Virus record (IMG/VR): IMGVR_UViG_3300049489_000464 | Span: 1 to 33,782 of that record | Strand: one strand, 5' to 3' | Source: a virus | DNA length: 33,782 nucleotides | Part shown: positions 3,162-17,948 of the stretch, piece by piece | Numbering within the stretch: the stretch's first letter is position 1 | Layout: every line of letters starts with the position of its first letter | Notes under the pieces: model-generated | The model's database searches: none | What the model was told of the DNA's origin: nothing | What the model saw: only the letters and a program-made list of their open reading frames with translations | Made by a program: the position numbers and the translations under genes

Positions 3162-4481
3162 TTGGCTCAGTTCAGAACTACAGCGGATGTCCTTGATCTT
3201 GCTCTCGCTAATGCGGGCGAAGTCATCAATGGAAACTCTCCTTACGAAACCGACTTACTTAATAAATTAAATCGAGTGCATTTTACGCTAATAGCCGGGG
3301 GTACGATTGCGCTCGGACGCGATGTCACCGTTGAGATCGACGAAGTATGGCCATGGGCGAAATCAAAACGGCCTATGATTCTCGAACTTCAGCCTAAGAT
3401 TACTACGGGCACTGTGACCCTAACGCTAGCTTCCGAGGTCGGCGCATTCAGTTCGGCTCCGACCGTCTCCGTCGCAGGCTGGTATTTACAGATCGACGGG
3501 GTCGAAGGGACTTACCGAATCGCCTCACACACGGCGAGTGCGACAGCATTCGAGCTCGATGGAGCGTGGGCGAGCGCCTCGATCACAGCAGGCGGCTATC
3601 GTATCTTCAAACTCGATTACGATCTCCTCCCGTCTTATCTCGTAATCGATTCGACGAATAATAAGATTAATTTTAAGAAGACCGCAGGCGGTTCGGAGCT
3701 CACGGCGACACTCACGGCAGGATCTTACACGCCGAGTGACCTAGCGACGCACGTAGCGGCGCAAATGACCGCAGTGGCAGCCGGACCTACGATCACCGGG
3801 GCTTATTCTACGATTACGAAACTATTCACTCTCACCTCGGACGGCGCAGGAGCGACAACGCTTCTTCCGCTCTTTGCATCGGGCACGAATCAGAAACAGT
3901 CCGCGCACAAGCTGCTCGGATACGATGATGCAGACTCGGCGGCGGCACTCACACAGACTTCGACCTACATACTTGGCGGTATCGCTCGTCTCGTTGAACC
4001 GATGCGCGCGCAGAGCGGGACTAATCAGCTCATCATGGGCGTCGACGGTGAGACCTTTATGCGAAACTATCCGCCACTTCTATGCGACGAAGGACAGCCG
4101 ACGAAATTCACAGTTATCGGCGAGGGCGAAGACGGTTCGCTGCGTGTCCGTTTTAATCACTACGCGAAAGAAAAGACGCGAATCGAAATCGATTACGTTC
4201 CTGTTCCGCGAGATCTTAAGGACTCCGGAGGCTCCGTTCCACTAGTACCACGAAAGTTCATCGACGTTCTCGAGGATGCGGCATCGTTCTTCATCATGCT
4301 GCTTAAGAATGACGACCGCGCCTCTTCATATGCGCAGCTCGTTCAAGGAAAATTAATGTCAATGATCAATCAACATCGCGGATCGCTAATGCGAACGGGA
4401 GTGAATTTCGGGCAGACTATTCCACGGAGAGATCATCTCGGATATAAGCGAAGACGTTTCTGGCCGGAGGAACCTTACTAA
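3162..4481 (+). CDS. Head-to-tail adaptor-like protein (TTG start)
   Basis: This 439-aa protein uses a TTG start placed 6 bases after AGGGGGAG; no better ATG is in frame nearby. The N-terminal helices (TTADVLDLALANAGEV...) and the C-terminal helices (FIDVLEDAASFFIMLLKNDD and onward) resemble the helical core of podovirus adaptor or tail-tube A proteins (P22 gp4, T7 gp11 type). Between them, from about residue 75 to 280, lies a long Thr/Ala-rich beta insertion. The gene stops at 4481, sharing one base with the ATG of the tail hub gene, so the two are translationally coupled. The call is from architecture and order; sequence-level homology was not tested. Confidence 0.5.
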   Translation: MAQFRTTADVLDLALANAGEVINGNSPYETDLLNKLNRVHFTLIAGGTIALGRDVTVEIDEVWPWAKSKRPMILELQPKITTGTVTLTLASEVGAFSSAPTVSVAGWYLQIDGVEGTYRIASHTASATAFELDGAWASASITAGGYRIFKLDYDLLPSYLVIDSTNNKINFKKTAGGSELTATLTAGSYTPSDLATHVAAQMTAVAAGPTITGAYSTITKLFTLTSDGAGATTLLPLFASGTNQKQSAHKLLGYDDADSAAALTQTSTYILGGIARLVEPMRAQSGTNQLIMGVDGETFMRNYPPLLCDEGQPTKFTVIGEGEDGSLRVRFNHYAKEKTRIEIDYVPVPRDLKDSGGSVPLVPRKFIDVLEDAASFFIMLLKNDDRASSYAQLVQGKLMSMINQHRGSLMRTGVNFGQTIPRRDHLGYKRRRFWPEEPY

Positions 4482-6058
4482 TGGCTTACGTTGGGCAAGT
4501 GGCACACATTCAACTGGGAAACATGGGACTTGTCACAGATACTCCGCCGTCGGACGTGCCACGTGGTGCGCTTATTCTTGCGAATAATGTGACGTTCGAG
4601 ACGGGGGCGATTACGAAAGCGCCCGGTTCGAGAAAACACAATACGAATGCTCTTCCCGCCGGGATCGTCGCACTCCATGACTATTGGCCTAATACATATT
4701 CACAGCGGCTCATCGCACTCTGCGATAATGGCTCGATATATCAGGACATTGACGATCATCTATTCGGAGGAAACGTAGCGATCACCACAGGACTAATGAG
4801 TGTCACACCGAAATCATTCTTTATCGAGGGCGGGCAAGAAACGGCCCTTCGCGATAAGAAATTATTTCTATTCACGGGGGCTAATCAGCTTAAGGTTCTC
4901 ACGGGAACTGAATCGACATTCGAAACAATTGCACTCCCTGCCGCAGACTGGACGACTCCGAACTATCCGACTTTCGGCTTTCTTCACCGTAATCGCCTGT
5001 GGGCATTCATGAAACAGCGAGCTTATGCTTCAACGACTGCGGATCATGAGGACTTTACGTCAGCGGGCATACTTACGCAGTCAATCTATCCCGGCGAAGG
5101 AGGCGATCTCATTGGCGGCTGGATATTCAAGGGACGGCCTTTCGTCTTTAAAGACGGCGGATTCGTCTACTATCTTGATGATTCAGACGTCGACTCGGAT
5201 AACTGGAACTGGAAGAAACTCGCATCGAACTTTGGTCTCGCCTCTCCTCATGCGATATTCGAGACGACGAACGACATGCTTGCACTGAACGAGTCGGGTG
5301 GACTCATTTCTTATTCTGCCATTAACACTTACGGCGGAATCGACGCAGCCGATGTTTATAAGATTCTTAAGGTTTCAGAATACTTAAGAAACAAGACCTC
5401 ACTCTCCGGTGTCGACATGACTCATACGATCTACTACGAAGATAAGCGTCAGATTTACATCACGGGTCGCTCGAGCTTTCAGGTCAATAATGATTTACTT
5501 ATTCAAATCGATATGAATAGCGCGCAGCCGAGAGTATCTCTCTTCGACAAGGACGCTCCGAACTGCCTCGCTCTTCGTCGTGATATTAATAAAATCAAAC
5601 GACCCATGTACGGGGCAGCGGACGGGTTCGTCTATCTCATGGATCAGGAAGATCGTCTCGTCGGCGCTTCCTCTTACACGGGTGAATTCAAGACGGGGCA
5701 TTATGACTTCCGCGATCTCGATTCGACACTCGCGCATAAGAATAAAATCTTTGATCATCTCGCGGTGGAATTCGTTCCGCAAGGAACATGGAACCTCGAC
5801 ATTGACGTCTATATTGACGGGAAGTTCTCCGAGACGATTCAATTCTCGATGGACGTCAGGGACGACGGTCTGGACACTTTCACGCTCGATACAGACCCAC
5901 TCGGACGTGAAGAGGCGCAGACAATCCAGAAGCCGCTCCATGGATCGGGGCGGCGCATTTCATTTCACTGTAAACAAGCTGGCTCGAATCAGAATTTTGA
6001 AATAACATCATTAGCAATTGGTTTCCGTGTCAGTGCCGAACAGGCGACACGAGTTTAA
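4481..6058 (+). CDS. Tail hub / DNA stabilisation protein, P22 gp10-like or T7 gp12-like
   Basis: This 525-aa protein begins with a segment near residues 22-50 (PRGALILANNVTFETGAITKAPG) typical of the beta-propeller tail nozzle proteins of podoviruses, which carry an N-terminal L.NNV....GA..K.PGS signature. Repeated aromatic/Gly beta strands follow throughout. It would sit below the adaptor and plug the filled head. The start codon overlaps the adaptor stop (TAATG), so it is made in a fixed ratio to it. No catalytic motif is seen. It could alternatively be described as a tail tubular protein B; both names refer to the same structural position. Confidence 0.65.
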   Translation: MAYVGQVAHIQLGNMGLVTDTPPSDVPRGALILANNVTFETGAITKAPGSRKHNTNALPAGIVALHDYWPNTYSQRLIALCDNGSIYQDIDDHLFGGNVAITTGLMSVTPKSFFIEGGQETALRDKKLFLFTGANQLKVLTGTESTFETIALPAADWTTPNYPTFGFLHRNRLWAFMKQRAYASTTADHEDFTSAGILTQSIYPGEGGDLIGGWIFKGRPFVFKDGGFVYYLDDSDVDSDNWNWKKLASNFGLASPHAIFETTNDMLALNESGGLISYSAINTYGGIDAADVYKILKVSEYLRNKTSLSGVDMTHTIYYEDKRQIYITGRSSFQVNNDLLIQIDMNSAQPRVSLFDKDAPNCLALRRDINKIKRPMYGAADGFVYLMDQEDRLVGASSYTGEFKTGHYDFRDLDSTLAHKNKIFDHLAVEFVPQGTWNLDIDVYIDGKFSETIQFSMDVRDDGLDTFTLDTDPLGREEAQTIQKPLHGSGRRISFHCKQAGSNQNFEITSLAIGFRVSAEQATRV

Positions 6059-6067
6059 GGGGATACT

Positions 6068-8584
6068 ATGGCAGGCGCACTTTTCTCACGTATTAAAACA
6101 TGGGTCAGCACTGAGGACGTAACGTACTCGGATCTTAATGCTGAGTTTGATAATATCTTACAGAATCTTACACCGGCGGGAATGGATGATTACTCGCTTA
6201 CGGTCGGACAAATGCAGACAACTACTGATCCCGGCGAGGTTGGAACAGAGAATCTTGCAACGACTCTTGCAGGGGAGTTAGCGCGACTTCGTTTCGTTCT
6301 CGCGCAGATTACAGGGGAAACTTACTGGTATGAGAGTCCACTGACTTCTCTCGCCGTCTTGAGTACGGCACTTGACTCGGTGACTCCGGATAATCGCCTA
6401 GTCTCCGGAAGGGTTATCACAGGAGAACAGCAAGCAATTGCCCTTGTCCCTAATGGAGCGGCGACAACTGCGACAGTTAAAGGTGCGACTACTAATCTAA
6501 TTTATTACGTAGCAGGCGCGCAATATACGATAACGACTGATGTAAATATCACAGGACTCGCTACGGCGGCAGCGGCGAATAACACTTGCCTCGTGAATGA
6601 TGCTGGGATTGCTGACGGGGAAGAGACTAAATATATTGGAGAATATGGAAGCTCCCTCACAGTCGATGCGATGGGAACCTCAGTCACGGGGCTCGTCGGC
6701 ACGGTCGCAGGGTTTAAGATCAATAACGGAAGCACGGATGAGTATTTCCTCGCTTACGTCGAGAGCACGACGAAGCTGACGCAGATCACCCGAGGAAACT
6801 TCTTCACTAGCGCAGACGCGCCCATCCCGCGCATAGCTGTCGCAGATAATGACGTGATCACCGTAATGAAAGCGGGTTGGATTTTTGCGAAAACTGACCT
6901 CTCTCTGACAGTGACTTACACACTTCCCTTTGTTGGGAAGACACAGCCTGCGGCTCCAGCTTCAGGCGATTATTGGTTTGATATAATAAATGACATATGG
7001 AAGAAATATGACGGCGTCTCTTGGGTTGATTCTCTAGCTACTTACATCGGCGTCGTCCTCACGGATACGACGAATACAGTTGCGGCGCGGACGGCGGATT
7101 ACTTCGCCTCTCGCAGCGCACTGAATACAGTGCAGCTTGAGAAATTCAGCGCGACGCAGATTAGGACGAAGAAAAATAGCGCCTCAGTTAGTGTGAACGG
7201 AACAGATCTCGACTTCTCTCCGAGTTACACGACTTGGGATATGACGCTTAACCTCGACTCAGGCGTCACTGAAGCGGCGAGTACGATTTATTATCTTTAC
7301 CTTAAGAACAACGGACAGCCTGTAATCTCGGATAAGGCTCCGCAGGACAGAAGAAATGATCTTCTCGGACTCTATCATCCGCATCAGATGTGGCGCTGTG
7401 TCGGGCAGACTTTCAACGATGCGAGCTCTAACTTAGAGATTGCGATAAGCTACTCTGACGAGAGTGAGCATAATTATGCACTCACTTCCTCAGTCGCGGC
7501 GAGTGCTCTGACGCTGAGGGCACACGCATCTCCGGCACTATCTTTCAAATTCAAAAACACGACTGCGGCAGCGGGCTCTTTTGAGCACGGCGCACTTCTC
7601 CCTGGGACTTCTCTTGTCCTCAGCTCAGGAAGTACACTGGGAACGACTTCCGCACTGAGCGAAGACATCTTCGCCTCACTCATCCTCTTCGGGGGACGGG
7701 CGGAACTTGCAATATCTAAATTCGCAGCGGGAAATGGCTATCTTGCTACTACGACGGCAGAGGGCGGAGCTGGTGCGGCTGACTTAGATACCGCGCTCTA
7801 TTCGCGAGCTGCGCGCACCTCTGTTCCCATTATGCCCTTCAGCCGCATGCAAAATAATCAGACGACTGCGGGAACATGGGCTGCGGCCTTTGAGCTTATG
7901 GCGCTCTCCCCATTCGGAACGGGCGGAAAATTTGACGTGAAGACTTTCACAGGCTCGGGAACGTGGACCAAGACAGTTGGGCTAAAAAAGGCCATTATCA
8001 TCATCACCGGAGGCGGAGCTGGTGCCGGAGGAGCCGACTCAGACGGAACGGGAATCGGGGGCGCAGGAGGCGGAGGCGCAGGGGGAACGGCTATTCGTCT
8101 CATGTATGCGTCAGCTTTAGGTGCGACTGAAACAGTCACCATAGGCGGGGGCGGTTCCGCAGGTTCCGGAACGAATGGGACTAACGGGGGCACAGGAACT
8201 TCATCTACTTTCGGCGCACATCTCACGGGATCGGGAGGAAGCGGGGGAACCGGAACAGGGATTAACACTGCTACGCAATCTGTTTTCTCTGGGGGAGCGG
8301 GCGGTGGAGCATCTAGCGGTTTTATGAATACCCAAGGAGGGGGCGGAAGCTTTGGCATAACGGCCTCTGTGACCCCAGGTAAATCTGTCGGCGGAAACGG
8401 CGGCGGCTCCTTCTGGGGAGGCGGTCCGCAGGGAAGTATCTCGACAGGAGCAGGCGCAGCGGGAACTAACGGAGCAGCTTATGGCGCAGGCGGATCAGGT
8501 GCAGCTTGCTCCGCTAACACCACAGGGGCGTCAGGCGGAACTGGAGCAGCCGGACTTTGCCTGGTCTTTGAATTTTACGATTAA
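6068..8584 (+). CDS. Tail fibre or spike with glycine-rich C-terminal domain
   Basis: This 838-aa protein follows AAGGGGATACT before ATG. Residues 1 to about 110 (SRIKTWVSTEDVTYSDLNAEFDNIL) look like the short N-terminal virion-anchoring part of podovirus fibres. The middle is Thr/Ala/Val beta-rich. From about residue 625 a strand (TFTGSGTWTKTVGLKKAIIIITGGG) leads into roughly 190 residues dominated by GG, GGG and GT repeats, ending in CLVFEFYD. Such glycine-rich tips pack as polyglycine helices or beta prisms and contact the host surface in known fibre families. The two genes that follow look fibre-associated. No hydrolase motif was recognised. Confidence 0.75.
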   Translation: MAGALFSRIKTWVSTEDVTYSDLNAEFDNILQNLTPAGMDDYSLTVGQMQTTTDPGEVGTENLATTLAGELARLRFVLAQITGETYWYESPLTSLAVLSTALDSVTPDNRLVSGRVITGEQQAIALVPNGAATTATVKGATTNLIYYVAGAQYTITTDVNITGLATAAAANNTCLVNDAGIADGEETKYIGEYGSSLTVDAMGTSVTGLVGTVAGFKINNGSTDEYFLAYVESTTKLTQITRGNFFTSADAPIPRIAVADNDVITVMKAGWIFAKTDLSLTVTYTLPFVGKTQPAAPASGDYWFDIINDIWKKYDGVSWVDSLATYIGVVLTDTTNTVAARTADYFASRSALNTVQLEKFSATQIRTKKNSASVSVNGTDLDFSPSYTTWDMTLNLDSGVTEAASTIYYLYLKNNGQPVISDKAPQDRRNDLLGLYHPHQMWRCVGQTFNDASSNLEIAISYSDESEHNYALTSSVAASALTLRAHASPALSFKFKNTTAAAGSFEHGALLPGTSLVLSSGSTLGTTSALSEDIFASLILFGGRAELAISKFAAGNGYLATTTAEGGAGAADLDTALYSRAARTSVPIMPFSRMQNNQTTAGTWAAAFELMALSPFGTGGKFDVKTFTGSGTWTKTVGLKKAIIIITGGGAGAGGADSDGTGIGGAGGGGAGGTAIRLMYASALGATETVTIGGGGSAGSGTNGTNGGTGTSSTFGAHLTGSGGSGGTGTGINTATQSVFSGGAGGGASSGFMNTQGGGGSFGITASVTPGKSVGGNGGGSFWGGGPQGSISTGAGAAGTNGAAYGAGGSGAACSANTTGASGGTGAAGLCLVFEFYD

Positions 8585-8593
8585 GGAGAAACC

Positions 8594-8779
8594 ATGCCAC
8601 TTTATGCGCTAATCAGAAACGGAATAGTTGAGAAAGTCATAGTCGCAGAAGCAGATTTCATCACGCTAATATCAGCGGAATGGGATGCTTGTGTTAGAGT
8701 CGAGGGGAGAGAAGATCGCCCCAGTCCTTCATGGACTTATGATGGGGAGCTCTTCACCCCTCCTGAGGAAGCACCATGA
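8594..8779 (+). CDS. Small fibre-associated protein
   Basis: This 61-aa protein follows AAGGAGAAACC before ATG. It begins MPLYALIRNGIVEKVIVAEADF and ends with a WTYDGELFTPPEE stretch. This pattern (xYALIxxGxVxxVIVAxxxF ... WxYxGxxFxPP) is common in small proteins directly after tail fibre genes, thought to be fibre caps or assembly helpers. Its stop overlaps the next start as ATGA. The role is inferred from position and remembered pattern. Confidence 0.65.
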   Translation: MPLYALIRNGIVEKVIVAEADFITLISAEWDACVRVEGREDRPSPSWTYDGELFTPPEEAP

Positions 8780-9108
8780 GCCTCTGGGCAGACTATCACA
8801 ACGAACGCTACGGCTACGAAACTATCGAAGTCGAAGGTGGATTCATATGCTATACGATCAATCCTCCTGACGCAGCAATTGAGGAGTTTTATATAGCCCC
8901 TACACACAGAGGGACGCATCTTGCAAAAGAGATGATGAAGCGAGTCTTCGATCTAGCACAAGCGGCTGGAGCAAAAACCATGTGGACGAAAGTCACACCG
9001 GGGGTACGCGGCGCAGAACACACTATGCAAGTTTGCTTAAACTATGGAGCAACGCTAGCCGGAGTCCGAGATAATGGTGTAATCTTAAAAAAAGAAATAG
9101 GAGACTAG
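8776..9108 (+). CDS. GNAT-family N-acetyltransferase
   Basis: This 110-aa protein carries a GNAT core: the strand EEFYIAPTHRGTHLAKEMM at residues 36-54, where the acetyl-CoA pyrophosphate loop R/Q-x-x-G-x-G/A appears as R45-G46-T-H-L-A50, then a long helix ending LAQAAGAKTMWTKVTPG, and a final YGATLAGVRDNGVILKK strand pair. It would transfer an acetyl group from acetyl-CoA to an amine. The protein is shorter than most GNATs (about 140-170 aa), lacking much of the N-terminal subdomain. It overlaps the upstream fibre-associated gene by ATGA and sits inside the virion cassette, so its target could be a virion or host protein. The substrate cannot be told from sequence. Confidence 0.7.
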   Translation: MSLWADYHNERYGYETIEVEGGFICYTINPPDAAIEEFYIAPTHRGTHLAKEMMKRVFDLAQAAGAKTMWTKVTPGVRGAEHTMQVCLNYGATLAGVRDNGVILKKEIGD

Positions 9109-14696: not shown

Positions 14697-17600
14697 CTAT
14701 ATTATCTCTTTAAGTTCGCTCATCCTTTTTCCCGCTTTACATTCTCGCGGTATGTACATGCGTCCCCCCGGAAGGTCGATCGCCGGATGTCCCGCTTTCG
14801 TATCGAGACAAACGCGCGCTATGTCTTCGATTCCCGCATCCGTTGTCAGTAGCGTAAGCGAATCATGCACCTGATCGATGAGCTGAAATTTCAGCTTCCC
14901 CTGACTTCGCAGATCGCACAAGTGCAACATTAAATGATTCGTAAGAAATGGAATGGTGTGCTGTGGACGGAACGCTGCGGCTTCCTTGAACATGTCCGTT
15001 CCCGGTCTGCCATAGAAGTACCGCTCCCATCCTGTCGGCGTCGTCAGCTTACGTTTCATGTAAAGTTCGCGGCGAATCCATGCATGCCAACGTGGTATTC
15101 CGGGGAACAGTCCGTAATAGGCCTCCGTAATCATCTCCGCATCTTTTCGTGAGATGACCATGTCGAGCTCGTTAAAAACGGTGTCGGCGAAGACCGAAGC
15201 CTTCATTCCATAATTCAGTCCATGTCCGGCTTTCTTGCCAAGCTGACGCCAAGTCCGTTTAAATTCATCTCGATCGATAGCACTTGGGTCACGACCCATG
15301 TGTCGTAAGATTGCATTACCGACGTGGGAATGAACATCCGCACCGGACTCAAGCATCTCAATGAGTTGACTGTCCGCACTGTCGTAAGCAACGAAACGAC
15401 TCTCAGCCTGACGAAGATCGACTTCAATAAAAGAATGACCTTCCGGCGCAAGGAACATTGATTTGATTGAGACATCTCCGCCCTCCTTCGGTATTGTTTG
15501 AATGTTGAAGCCGCGACCCCATGGATCTTTTCCGCCGCTCCATCGGAGCGTCTCCGTACCTGTGATGTTGAGCGAGTATGAGAGACGTCCGTCAGATCGT
15601 GCTTCGAAATTGATGTACGACGAGAGAGCCTTACCGAGCGTTTTGATTTCCTGAAGCTCACTGAGTCCCGGTAGATCCTTCTTGATGCGGATCTTTTTAA
15701 TCGCATTCGAGTCCGCTGTCTCCTTATATGAGTCTGCGCTCTTGTCGTACTTTTTCGGTAAACTTACTCCGGCGGCGAGAAGCCACTTCTTTACTTGCGC
15801 AGGTGAGTTCGGATTGAGCTCCGCGCCTACTTTCGCGTGGAAGTCCGTCGTGAGGGTTTTGATACGCGATTCAATTTCGACCTGTAAACTTGCGCGGCGA
15901 TCGAGGTCAAGGGGCATTCCCGTGGCACACATCTCTCGTGCGCAGTCGACGAGTTTAGTCGTATATGATTTATAAAAATCTTCGAGTCCACGCTCTCGCA
16001 GATCAGTTCGCTGATTCCGAGATGACTCAATAGTTCCTGCAGTGTCGCGACAATTTGCGACAATTCCATACTCCGTGAGAAAGTTTCCATTGCCATTGAC
16101 TGTGATACAGTAGCTTGTTTTATACCCGCGCTTTTTTTTCCTCTCACGTGATACCCCCGTCACCATAATTTCTTTTCTGCCCGGCTTACTTGCATAGGTC
16201 ATACAATCAGCTAATGAATACTCCGGTCCAGGATGGCTCATCTTGTAGCGCATCGAGGGAACAAAAAAACACCCAAGCTCTGCACACACTTTGCGAGACA
16301 TTGCACCTGACATACTAAGATTACCAGCTTTGTCAACGGAGGCCTTAGCACTATAACGTGATCTAAAAAAAGATAAAATCAAATTGCGTTCTTCTTGTGA
16401 GTAACTCTGTAGTGCAAGTTTCATGTGTGGGTATTTAGATTTTTGCTTACATCCGTCGTCCATTATCCAGAGAGCTAAACCTAAAGGTGTCAGCTTTTGA
16501 AGTAAAGAAACGATTGATAATCTACTCAGGTGCTTTAATTGTGCGCAAGCCGGAACATAAAGAGAGTAAAAAGTATTAGCCCCATATTCTGTCTCTCTCC
16601 AGGAAGAAGTCACCGTTCCCCCGAATAAATTTTGCTTTAATCTTATTAATTCGGGCGATATTTGCATTGTAGTCAGATATGCACGATTTACATTGGTCGA
16701 TACTTGAATAGAACTATCTCCCAAGAAGGTTCCTGCGATAGTTCCTATGTTGTGGCATACACCCTCAGTGATCATATTATCACCAGGCACTATATTTACC
16801 GCTTGCTTCCATCCTGACTGACATAAAACATTATGATCAGTTGTTAAGAGTAGACCGTTTTTATTTCCATCCTCTTCGGTATTAAGTTTAACCCAATTGA
16901 CGTTGGCTTTCTCACGTTTCTCTAGCCATCTAGTTATATTTCCCCACTCCATGCATTTTGTTTTTTCATTATAACAACGTACCTTGATGGGCATTTTATT
17001 CTTAACTATTTTATCGATAGAAAGTAATCCTTTTTCGGTTACTACTTTCATTCCTTTGGCTAGGCAATTGTACGCATAGTGCTTTCCCCAGTCGCGAACA
17101 TTGCCCCAGTCTTTTTTCTTACCCTCTTCATGCTCGACCTTTCCGTCGTCTTTCCAATAAATGCGCTTCGTGTATATTCTACCGACGTTTCCGAGGTTCG
17201 AGTCAAGCTCAGGCCAGAGGACTTTCATCGCATGCATTGTATCGTAGATTTCGCCCTCGGTGCGAATTCCGTAGGCCGAGAAGTAGCTCGTGTCGTACAT
17301 GAAGTTCTGAAAGATCTTCAGCGCGGGACTTCTTAAGACCGAGGCGATCTTCCGCCAAAGTTCATGATAAGCAGTATCGCCACAGCGATCAGGCAGTACG
17401 TTAATGGCGATAGCGTCGGATGGGCTCCAAGCGAATCCAACTGTGTTAATTTGTCCATATCCTGTCTCCACGTCTATTGCTATTTCGGGTTCTGTTTTTA
17501 TGCGGTCGAGTACGGTAAGGGTCTCTTCGATTCCCGGATTCAGCAGGAAGCGTTCTGGTGTCGCCGTGTGCGGCGTTCGAGCGAAGTCCGCTGCCCTCTG

Positions 17601-17948
17601 CATAGCCATCTCGAGATAAAGTCCGAGCTCGAATTGCTTCTGTATGCGACCGAAATCGAAGGTCGGAATAAAAGTACCTCCACCGAGAAGGGGGAGTGGA
17701 CTTAGATGCCACTTATCGATTCCCTTCTTCCCAGTGAAAGTACGTAGAGTTTTCTCGCCGAGGCCTATGACGATTCCAGGGTAGGGGCCGGGAACAGACG
17801 GACACAGACTTATCGAGATTGACTCTGAAGGCAAACCCGCTCTTTGGATTCGACTTCGGAGGAAATCTTCTTGCCATCCGCTGAGGAGTGATCCTGCGGA
17901 AGGAGCCGACGTTCTTATTTCATCGAGTACGATATTCACGTTAAGCAT
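14697..17948 (-). CDS. Family A DNA polymerase (PolA-like) interrupted by an intein
   Basis: The precursor has 1083 aa; removing the 338-aa intein leaves 745 aa, a normal length for phage PolA enzymes. Order: residues 1-125 resemble a degenerate uracil-DNA-glycosylase-fold module (VIGLGEKTLRTFTGKKGIDKW ... IPTFDF); a 3'-5' exonuclease with Exo I D159-V-E161, Exo II N215-F-M-Y-D219 and Exo III Y293-N294 joined after splicing to C633-R-D635; then the polymerase with motif A (D844 in VDLRQAESR), motif B (R901 ... K905-K906 ... Y913-G) and motif C (H1028-D1029-S1030). It is the replicative polymerase of the phage. ATG 17948 has no good ribosome site of its own, but a short upstream frame overlaps it. 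It is followed downstream by the 51-aa and DUF3987-like genes. Confidence 0.93.
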   Translation of the reverse strand: MLNVNIVLDEIRTSAPSAGSLLSGWQEDFLRSRIQRAGLPSESISISLCPSVPGPYPGIVIGLGEKTLRTFTGKKGIDKWHLSPLPLLGGGTFIPTFDFGRIQKQFELGLYLEMAMQRAADFARTPHTATPERFLLNPGIEETLTVLDRIKTEPEIAIDVETGYGQINTVGFAWSPSDAIAINVLPDRCGDTAYHELWRKIASVLRSPALKIFQNFMYDTSYFSAYGIRTEGEIYDTMHAMKVLWPELDSNLGNVGRIYTKRIYWKDDGKVEHEEGKKKDWGNVRDWGKHYAYNCLAKGMKVVTEKGLLSIDKIVKNKMPIKVRCYNEKTKCMEWGNITRWLEKREKANVNWVKLNTEEDGNKNGLLLTTDHNVLCQSGWKQAVNIVPGDNMITEGVCHNIGTIAGTFLGDSSIQVSTNVNRAYLTTMQISPELIRLKQNLFGGTVTSSWRETEYGANTFYSLYVPACAQLKHLSRLSIVSLLQKLTPLGLALWIMDDGCKQKSKYPHMKLALQSYSQEERNLILSFFRSRYSAKASVDKAGNLSMSGAMSRKVCAELGCFFVPSMRYKMSHPGPEYSLADCMTYASKPGRKEIMVTGVSRERKKKRGYKTSYCITVNGNGNFLTEYGIVANCRDTAGTIESSRNQRTDLRERGLEDFYKSYTTKLVDCAREMCATGMPLDLDRRASLQVEIESRIKTLTTDFHAKVGAELNPNSPAQVKKWLLAAGVSLPKKYDKSADSYKETADSNAIKKIRIKKDLPGLSELQEIKTLGKALSSYINFEARSDGRLSYSLNITGTETLRWSGGKDPWGRGFNIQTIPKEGGDVSIKSMFLAPEGHSFIEVDLRQAESRFVAYDSADSQLIEMLESGADVHSHVGNAILRHMGRDPSAIDRDEFKRTWRQLGKKAGHGLNYGMKASVFADTVFNELDMVISRKDAEMITEAYYGLFPGIPRWHAWIRRELYMKRKLTTPTGWERYFYGRPGTDMFKEAAAFRPQHTIPFLTNHLMLHLCDLRSQGKLKFQLIDQVHDSLTLLTTDAGIEDIARVCLDTKAGHPAIDLPGGRMYIPRECKAGKRMSELKEII
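16053..17066 (-). mobile_element. Intein with LAGLIDADG homing endonuclease, in the polymerase gene
   Basis: The 338-aa element begins with Cys295 (CLAKGMKVVT, block A) and ends with Asn632 (FLTEYGIVAN), followed by extein Cys633. Block B has the T-x-x-H signature (TTDH, intein residues 75-78). Two LAGLIDADG-type motifs are present: IAGTFLGDSS near residue 110 and PLGLALWIMDDG near residue 194, each with the metal-binding acidic residue. Block F (SYCITVNGNGNFL) lacks the usual Asp and His, and the penultimate residue is Ala instead of His. The segment looks more AT-rich than the surrounding exteins, a sign of separate origin. Splicing would rebuild the sequence YN-CRD. Confidence 0.92.

Follow-up and report, generated by a model that had tools for sequence, protein, structure and literature searches.

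A probable mobile intein at a recurrent insertion site within the Exo III motif of a phage family A DNA polymerase

Among the closest known counterparts of the element reported here are the mycobacteriophage inteins found in TerL, a RecB-like PD-(D/E)XK nuclease, and a TOPRIM protein, which are likewise phage inteins located in catalytic motifs (Kelley et al. 2016, PMC5050341). Mycobacteriophage inteins often lack the penultimate histidine, the role of which can be taken over by an upstream histidine in block F; a phage intein without the penultimate histidine was shown to splice, and a change of the penultimate residue altered precursor accumulation in a phage intein (PMC5050341). However, these inteins reside in other host proteins and their splicing has been shown experimentally, whereas the intein analyzed here is known from its sequence and a structural model. 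For the Exo III site of family A DNA polymerases (PolA), no description of an intein was found in the open-access literature, a scope outside which most subscription journals and InBase lie; the GenBank record of the T5-like Escherichia phage SelmaRatti (MZ501103), on the other hand, already contains an "intein-containing DNA polymerase precursor." The intein is of a well-known kind, while the site, although recurrent, is as far as we could find unpublished.

The window, i.e., the whole 33.8-kb virus contig that was analyzed, contains genes for a major head protein and a tail fibre and a single gene for a PolA precursor (Table 1); a second PolA gene was not found in this record. In the precursor, Pfam matches were obtained to DNA_pol_A (2.4e-32) and, slightly under its cut-off and therefore weak, to DNA_pol_A_exo1 (5.5e-04). 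In addition to the Exo I and Exo II residues listed in Table 1, alignment placed Exo III at Y293..D635 and the polymerase motifs at D844 (motif A), K905/Y913 (motif B), and H1028-D1029 (motif C); judged by this alignment, no catalytic motif of the exonuclease or the polymerase is missing, Exo III being complete once the extein is joined. The N-terminal region had no Pfam match, and the GExPG and HP motifs were not kept in its alignment to the related phage PolA.

Table 1. Features of the PolA precursor gene and its intein (positions in the window)
Feature	Position	Strand	Basis or remarks
PolA precursor gene (family A DNA polymerase with 3'-5' exonuclease domain)	14697..17948	-	1083 aa; one in-frame intein
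N-terminal region, aligning with the uracil-DNA-glycosylase-like N terminus of a related phage PolA	17574..17948	-	Alignment
N-terminal part of 3'-5' exonuclease domain, residues 146-254	17187..17513	-	Exo I D159xE161, Exo II N215..D219
Codons of the N-extein junction, Y293 (Tyr of Exo III, Y-x3-D) and N294 (x1)	17067..17072	-	
Class 1 intein with homing endonuclease, 338 aa, precursor C295-N632	16053..17066	-	Domain matches, alignment, model
Homing endonuclease domain (LAGLIDADG_2), residues 404-543 of the precursor	16320..16739	-	Pfam, model
Codons of the C-extein junction, C633 (+1 Cys nucleophile), R634, and D635 (Exo III Asp)	16044..16052	-	
DNA_pol_A polymerase domain, residues 687-1047	14808..15890	-	Motifs A, B, and C present

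An earlier, sequence-only reading of this DNA had proposed that the gene carries an intein, and both its identity and its boundaries, exactly those of Table 1, were upheld. The insert, flanked by ...HYAYN/C and N/CRDTAG (slashes mark the junctions), showed a weak match to Intein_splicing when searched on its own (4.3e-06, below the curated cut-off); the LAGLIDADG_2 domain (PF03161) was clearly matched, at 2.8e-14 and 3e-15, with the acidic residues of both LAGLIDADG motifs kept (D117 and D203/D204 in intein numbering). Its predicted structure (pLDDT 90) matched PI-PfuI, PI-SceI, I-SceI (2.7 Å over 192 columns), and the Mtu RecA splicing domain (1.6 Å over 103 columns), the Hint splicing fold being recovered against the last of these and against PI-PfuI. 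The residues of a class 1 intein are present, namely, Cys1 (C295), the terminal Asn (N632), the +1 Cys (C633), and a block B TxxH (TTDH, intein residues 75 to 78), the histidine of which, H78, was invariant across the 28 inteins compared. A class 3 assignment was ruled out, as Cys1 is present and the block F Cys is common to the other Exo III-site inteins. The precursor would accordingly be translated as a single chain in which Cys1 and the +1 Cys would mediate splicing and Asn338 would cyclize, leaving a ligated product with a normal exonuclease motif.

Joining residue 294 to residue 633 yields HYAYNCRDTAG, with YNCRD as the Exo III motif, within an extein of 745 aa, the length that had been claimed. 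Alignment with intein-less homologues, the check that had been proposed for this junction, confirmed the joined motif: among 80 intein-less PolA relatives from IMG/VR, none had an insert at this point, and the Y, N, and D of the joined motif were found in all 80. The position equivalent to +1 was occupied by Cys (55 relatives), Ala (18), Leu (5), or Gly (2). The resulting consensus is YN[C/A/L/G]xD (YNCxD in 55), and a related annotated PolA without intein, that of ctMlz233, reads FYNCKDA. The reading that the insertion lies between the Exo III Tyr and Asp (Y293-N294 and C633-R-D635) is therefore borne out by alignment. Judged from the sequence, the element is inserted exactly, and before splicing the Exo III site is not complete. 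When the entire precursor was modelled, residues 248 to 294, directly before the intein, had a pLDDT of <50, which agrees, as weak evidence, with a site that would not yet be formed; the D635 helix and the polymerase domain were confident overall, and the polymerase part matched Bst and Taq Pol I.

What did not stand was the suggestion that Exo III is an unusual place for an intein. At least nine further PolA lineages had an intein at the same site, comprising the T5-like phages, seven IMG/VR lineages (L007/L010, L008/L016, L009/L013, L011, L012, L024-L026, and L187/L182), and one genome-bin contig (L193), which brings the total to at least 10 with the window included. The T5-like set was obtained by tblastn in phage records and the IMG/VR set with degenerate DNA patterns plus an intein profile; since these scans are limited by their patterns, the count is a lower bound. 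Of the seven pattern matches in genome contigs, only L193 was a PolA, and the others look like chance. The IMG/VR and genome-bin inteins share insertion point, architecture, and block F Cys with the window intein but reside in very different polymerases, some of which harbor an additional intein, or two, at polymerase motifs. No close relative of this intein or of its precursor turned up among viral contigs (single-sequence search) or plasmids. The intein is a very divergent addition to a recurrent site in phage replicative polymerases. Other motifs of phage PolAs are occupied as well: Exo II (L014, L017, L018, and L049), the position just after the TGR/RLS sequence (L009 and L049), motif A (L024), and motif B (L009 and L193). 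The Exo II inteins are also of the LAGLIDADG type and split a different catalytic motif within the exonuclease domain (HN/C..N/CKF[DE] or CKYE) but differ in the motif invaded and fall on separate branches of the intein tree. Exo III is thus among several catalytic motifs that have received inteins, which is what homing elements would be expected to do.

The T5-like phages provide both the occupied and the empty form of the site. Carriers include SelmaRatti, Gostya9, and the Salmonella phages smaug, Kenya-K36, K42, and K44, the polymerases of which align in one piece through the intein; it is located at PYA/C...HN/CKDTD, a position identical to that of the window intein. These T5-like inteins are likewise class 1 LAGLIDADG inteins, 24 to 25% identical to the window intein over the full length. 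Only 8 of the approximately 540 records in which the polymerase shares at least 60% identity with the SelmaRatti enzyme align across the intein. The empty site reads GCT-GCA-AAA-GAT (Ala-Ala-Lys-Asp; YAAKD) in the four examined cases that matched unambiguously, and the occupied site reads GCA/TGT-AAA-GAT (YA/CKD), the flanking DNA being otherwise closely similar; over the 300 bases upstream, occupied smaug and CitS1 are 98 to 100% identical. As the codons changed right at the insertion between near-identical flanks, the +1 Cys, a splicing nucleophile, probably arrived with the element by co-conversion, replacing the Ala of the empty allele; in most window-type relatives, in contrast, the Cys is native. 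Such pairs of alleles offer a natural laboratory system for measuring whether fidelity is affected by an intein in a proofreading site.

Taken together, we consider it very probable that the element is a class 1 LAGLIDADG mobile intein at a recurrent site of phage PolAs, between x1 and x2 of Exo III, and most likely belongs to a family spread by homing. The site would be used because the DNA of a catalytic motif is conserved, making it a good homing target, and because imprecise loss would be lethal or harmful, favoring persistence. In the polymerase tree, the polymerase of the window falls into a well-supported 13-member clade (99/98), the other 12 members of which are intein-less. This clade is separate from the T5-like polymerases and the rest of those with inteins, and intein-less relatives lie between the clades; the tree implies six changes of intein presence, at least five of them forced by well-supported branches. 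The intein tree comprised 11 Exo III-site inteins (including two near-identical T5-like copies) and 20 from other sites, and the best tree placed all 11 on one side of a branch with weak support (71/39), which rose to 91/79 when the window intein was omitted. Scattered polymerase clades combined with this grouping suggest a site-specific family that moved horizontally. Full-length alignments were obtained with several Exo III-site inteins, among them that of L007 (26% identity, E of 7e-23). Most likely, though on weak support and judged from sequence, the window intein is a distant allele of this family, carried between polymerase lineages by homing.

Alternatively, a separate phage intein might have converged on the Exo III site because of its conservation, in which case it would not be allelic to the T5-like/Exo III-site inteins. 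Independent arrival is possible because of the 71/39 support, the long branch of the window intein (2.3), and its best BLASTP match among the collected inteins, which was that of L015 (intein 5001-6107, E of 2e-23) in a DegT/DnrJ-like aminotransferase gene of a viral contig, a gene named by eye; BLASTP scores of the window intein against inteins at other sites, in this DegT-like gene, at Exo II, and in an RNA ligase, were comparable. The best tree nevertheless places the window intein with the Exo III-site inteins, as did 68% of 200 bootstrap trees, and the block F Asp is replaced by Cys in the window intein and all other Exo III-site inteins sampled, although some inteins from other sites have this Cys too. 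We therefore regard convergence as unlikely, though deserving of serious attention, and retain descent from the Exo III-site family as the preferred reading.

A histidine in block F and a penultimate histidine usually assist cyclization of the terminal Asn, a usual but not strictly defining feature of class 1 inteins. Both are present in the T5-like inteins; both are absent from the window intein (Gly and Ala), as well as from those of L024 (Gly and Ala), L013 (Glu and Ser), and L193 (Gln and Ser). This double loss is notable in that efficient splicing cannot be assumed, and the rate would be worth measuring. It might even indicate a dead, non-splicing intein and a polymerase that is exonuclease defective or dead, yet the frame is open over 1083 codons, Cys1, TxxH, Asn, and the +1 Cys are retained, the same double loss occurs in L024, L013, and L193, where the PolA frames are open, the record contains no other PolA gene, and splicing without the penultimate histidine has a phage precedent (PMC5050341). 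A dead element is, in our judgment, very improbable, and a spliced, functional polymerase is the reading that we favor.

The sequence-only reading had further suggested that splicing could act as a switch. In a regulated form of this idea, unspliced precursor would polymerize without proofreading, and redox, temperature, or infection stage would determine how much of it is spliced and, through this, the mutation rate. In its favor, 338 residues part the Exo III Asp from its Tyr before splicing, while the polymerase domain lies uninterrupted downstream and is modelled in the precursor with high confidence; Cys1, the +1 Cys, and the Cys of block F might be redox responsive; and the missing histidines of the window intein and those of L013, L024, and L193 may change the splicing rate (compare the effect of the penultimate residue on precursor buildup; PMC5050341). 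Against it, the sequence gave no sign of regulation, motifs A and B, where a proofreading switch makes no sense, are occupied by inteins as well, and the patchy presence among near-identical T5-like phages points to a dispensable mobile element, so that the proposal is scarcely credible. Equally hard to credit is the variant in which splicing speed, altered by the double histidine loss, would set the proofreading share during infection, with a selfish element doubling as a mutation-rate control. As catalytic motifs in general are intein targets, both in phage PolAs and in the mycobacteriophage proteins mentioned above, the position in Exo III can be understood without invoking regulation, and a mobile element that would have no regulatory role remains our preferred reading.

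Several PolA genes encountered in the scans deserve separate mention. The polymerase of L009/L013 (IMGVR_UViG_3300043411_000952) contains three inteins, at Exo III, after TGRPR, and in motif B (NFS/C...SN/SAYGAS), and that of L193 contains two, at Exo III and motif B. Two inteins also interrupt the PolA encoded by L024-L026 (frame 3636-8870), one located at Exo III and the other at motif A (GADY/C...GN/SQIEVR), the latter carrying an endonuclease of the HNH type (HNH_3, slightly below cut-off). Six PolA genes without an Exo III intein (L143, L144, L150, L153, L156, and L157) have inserts of approximately 0.2 to 0.95 kb just after NLQNIP, often with a frame change; a search for group I introns behind the PolA gaps of six intein-less loci gave no Rfam match at the gathering score, and the inserts after NLQNIP are possibly unrecognized introns. 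Finally, in L014 and L017, the open reading frame stops after the exonuclease domain, and the polymerase may be encoded by a separate gene.
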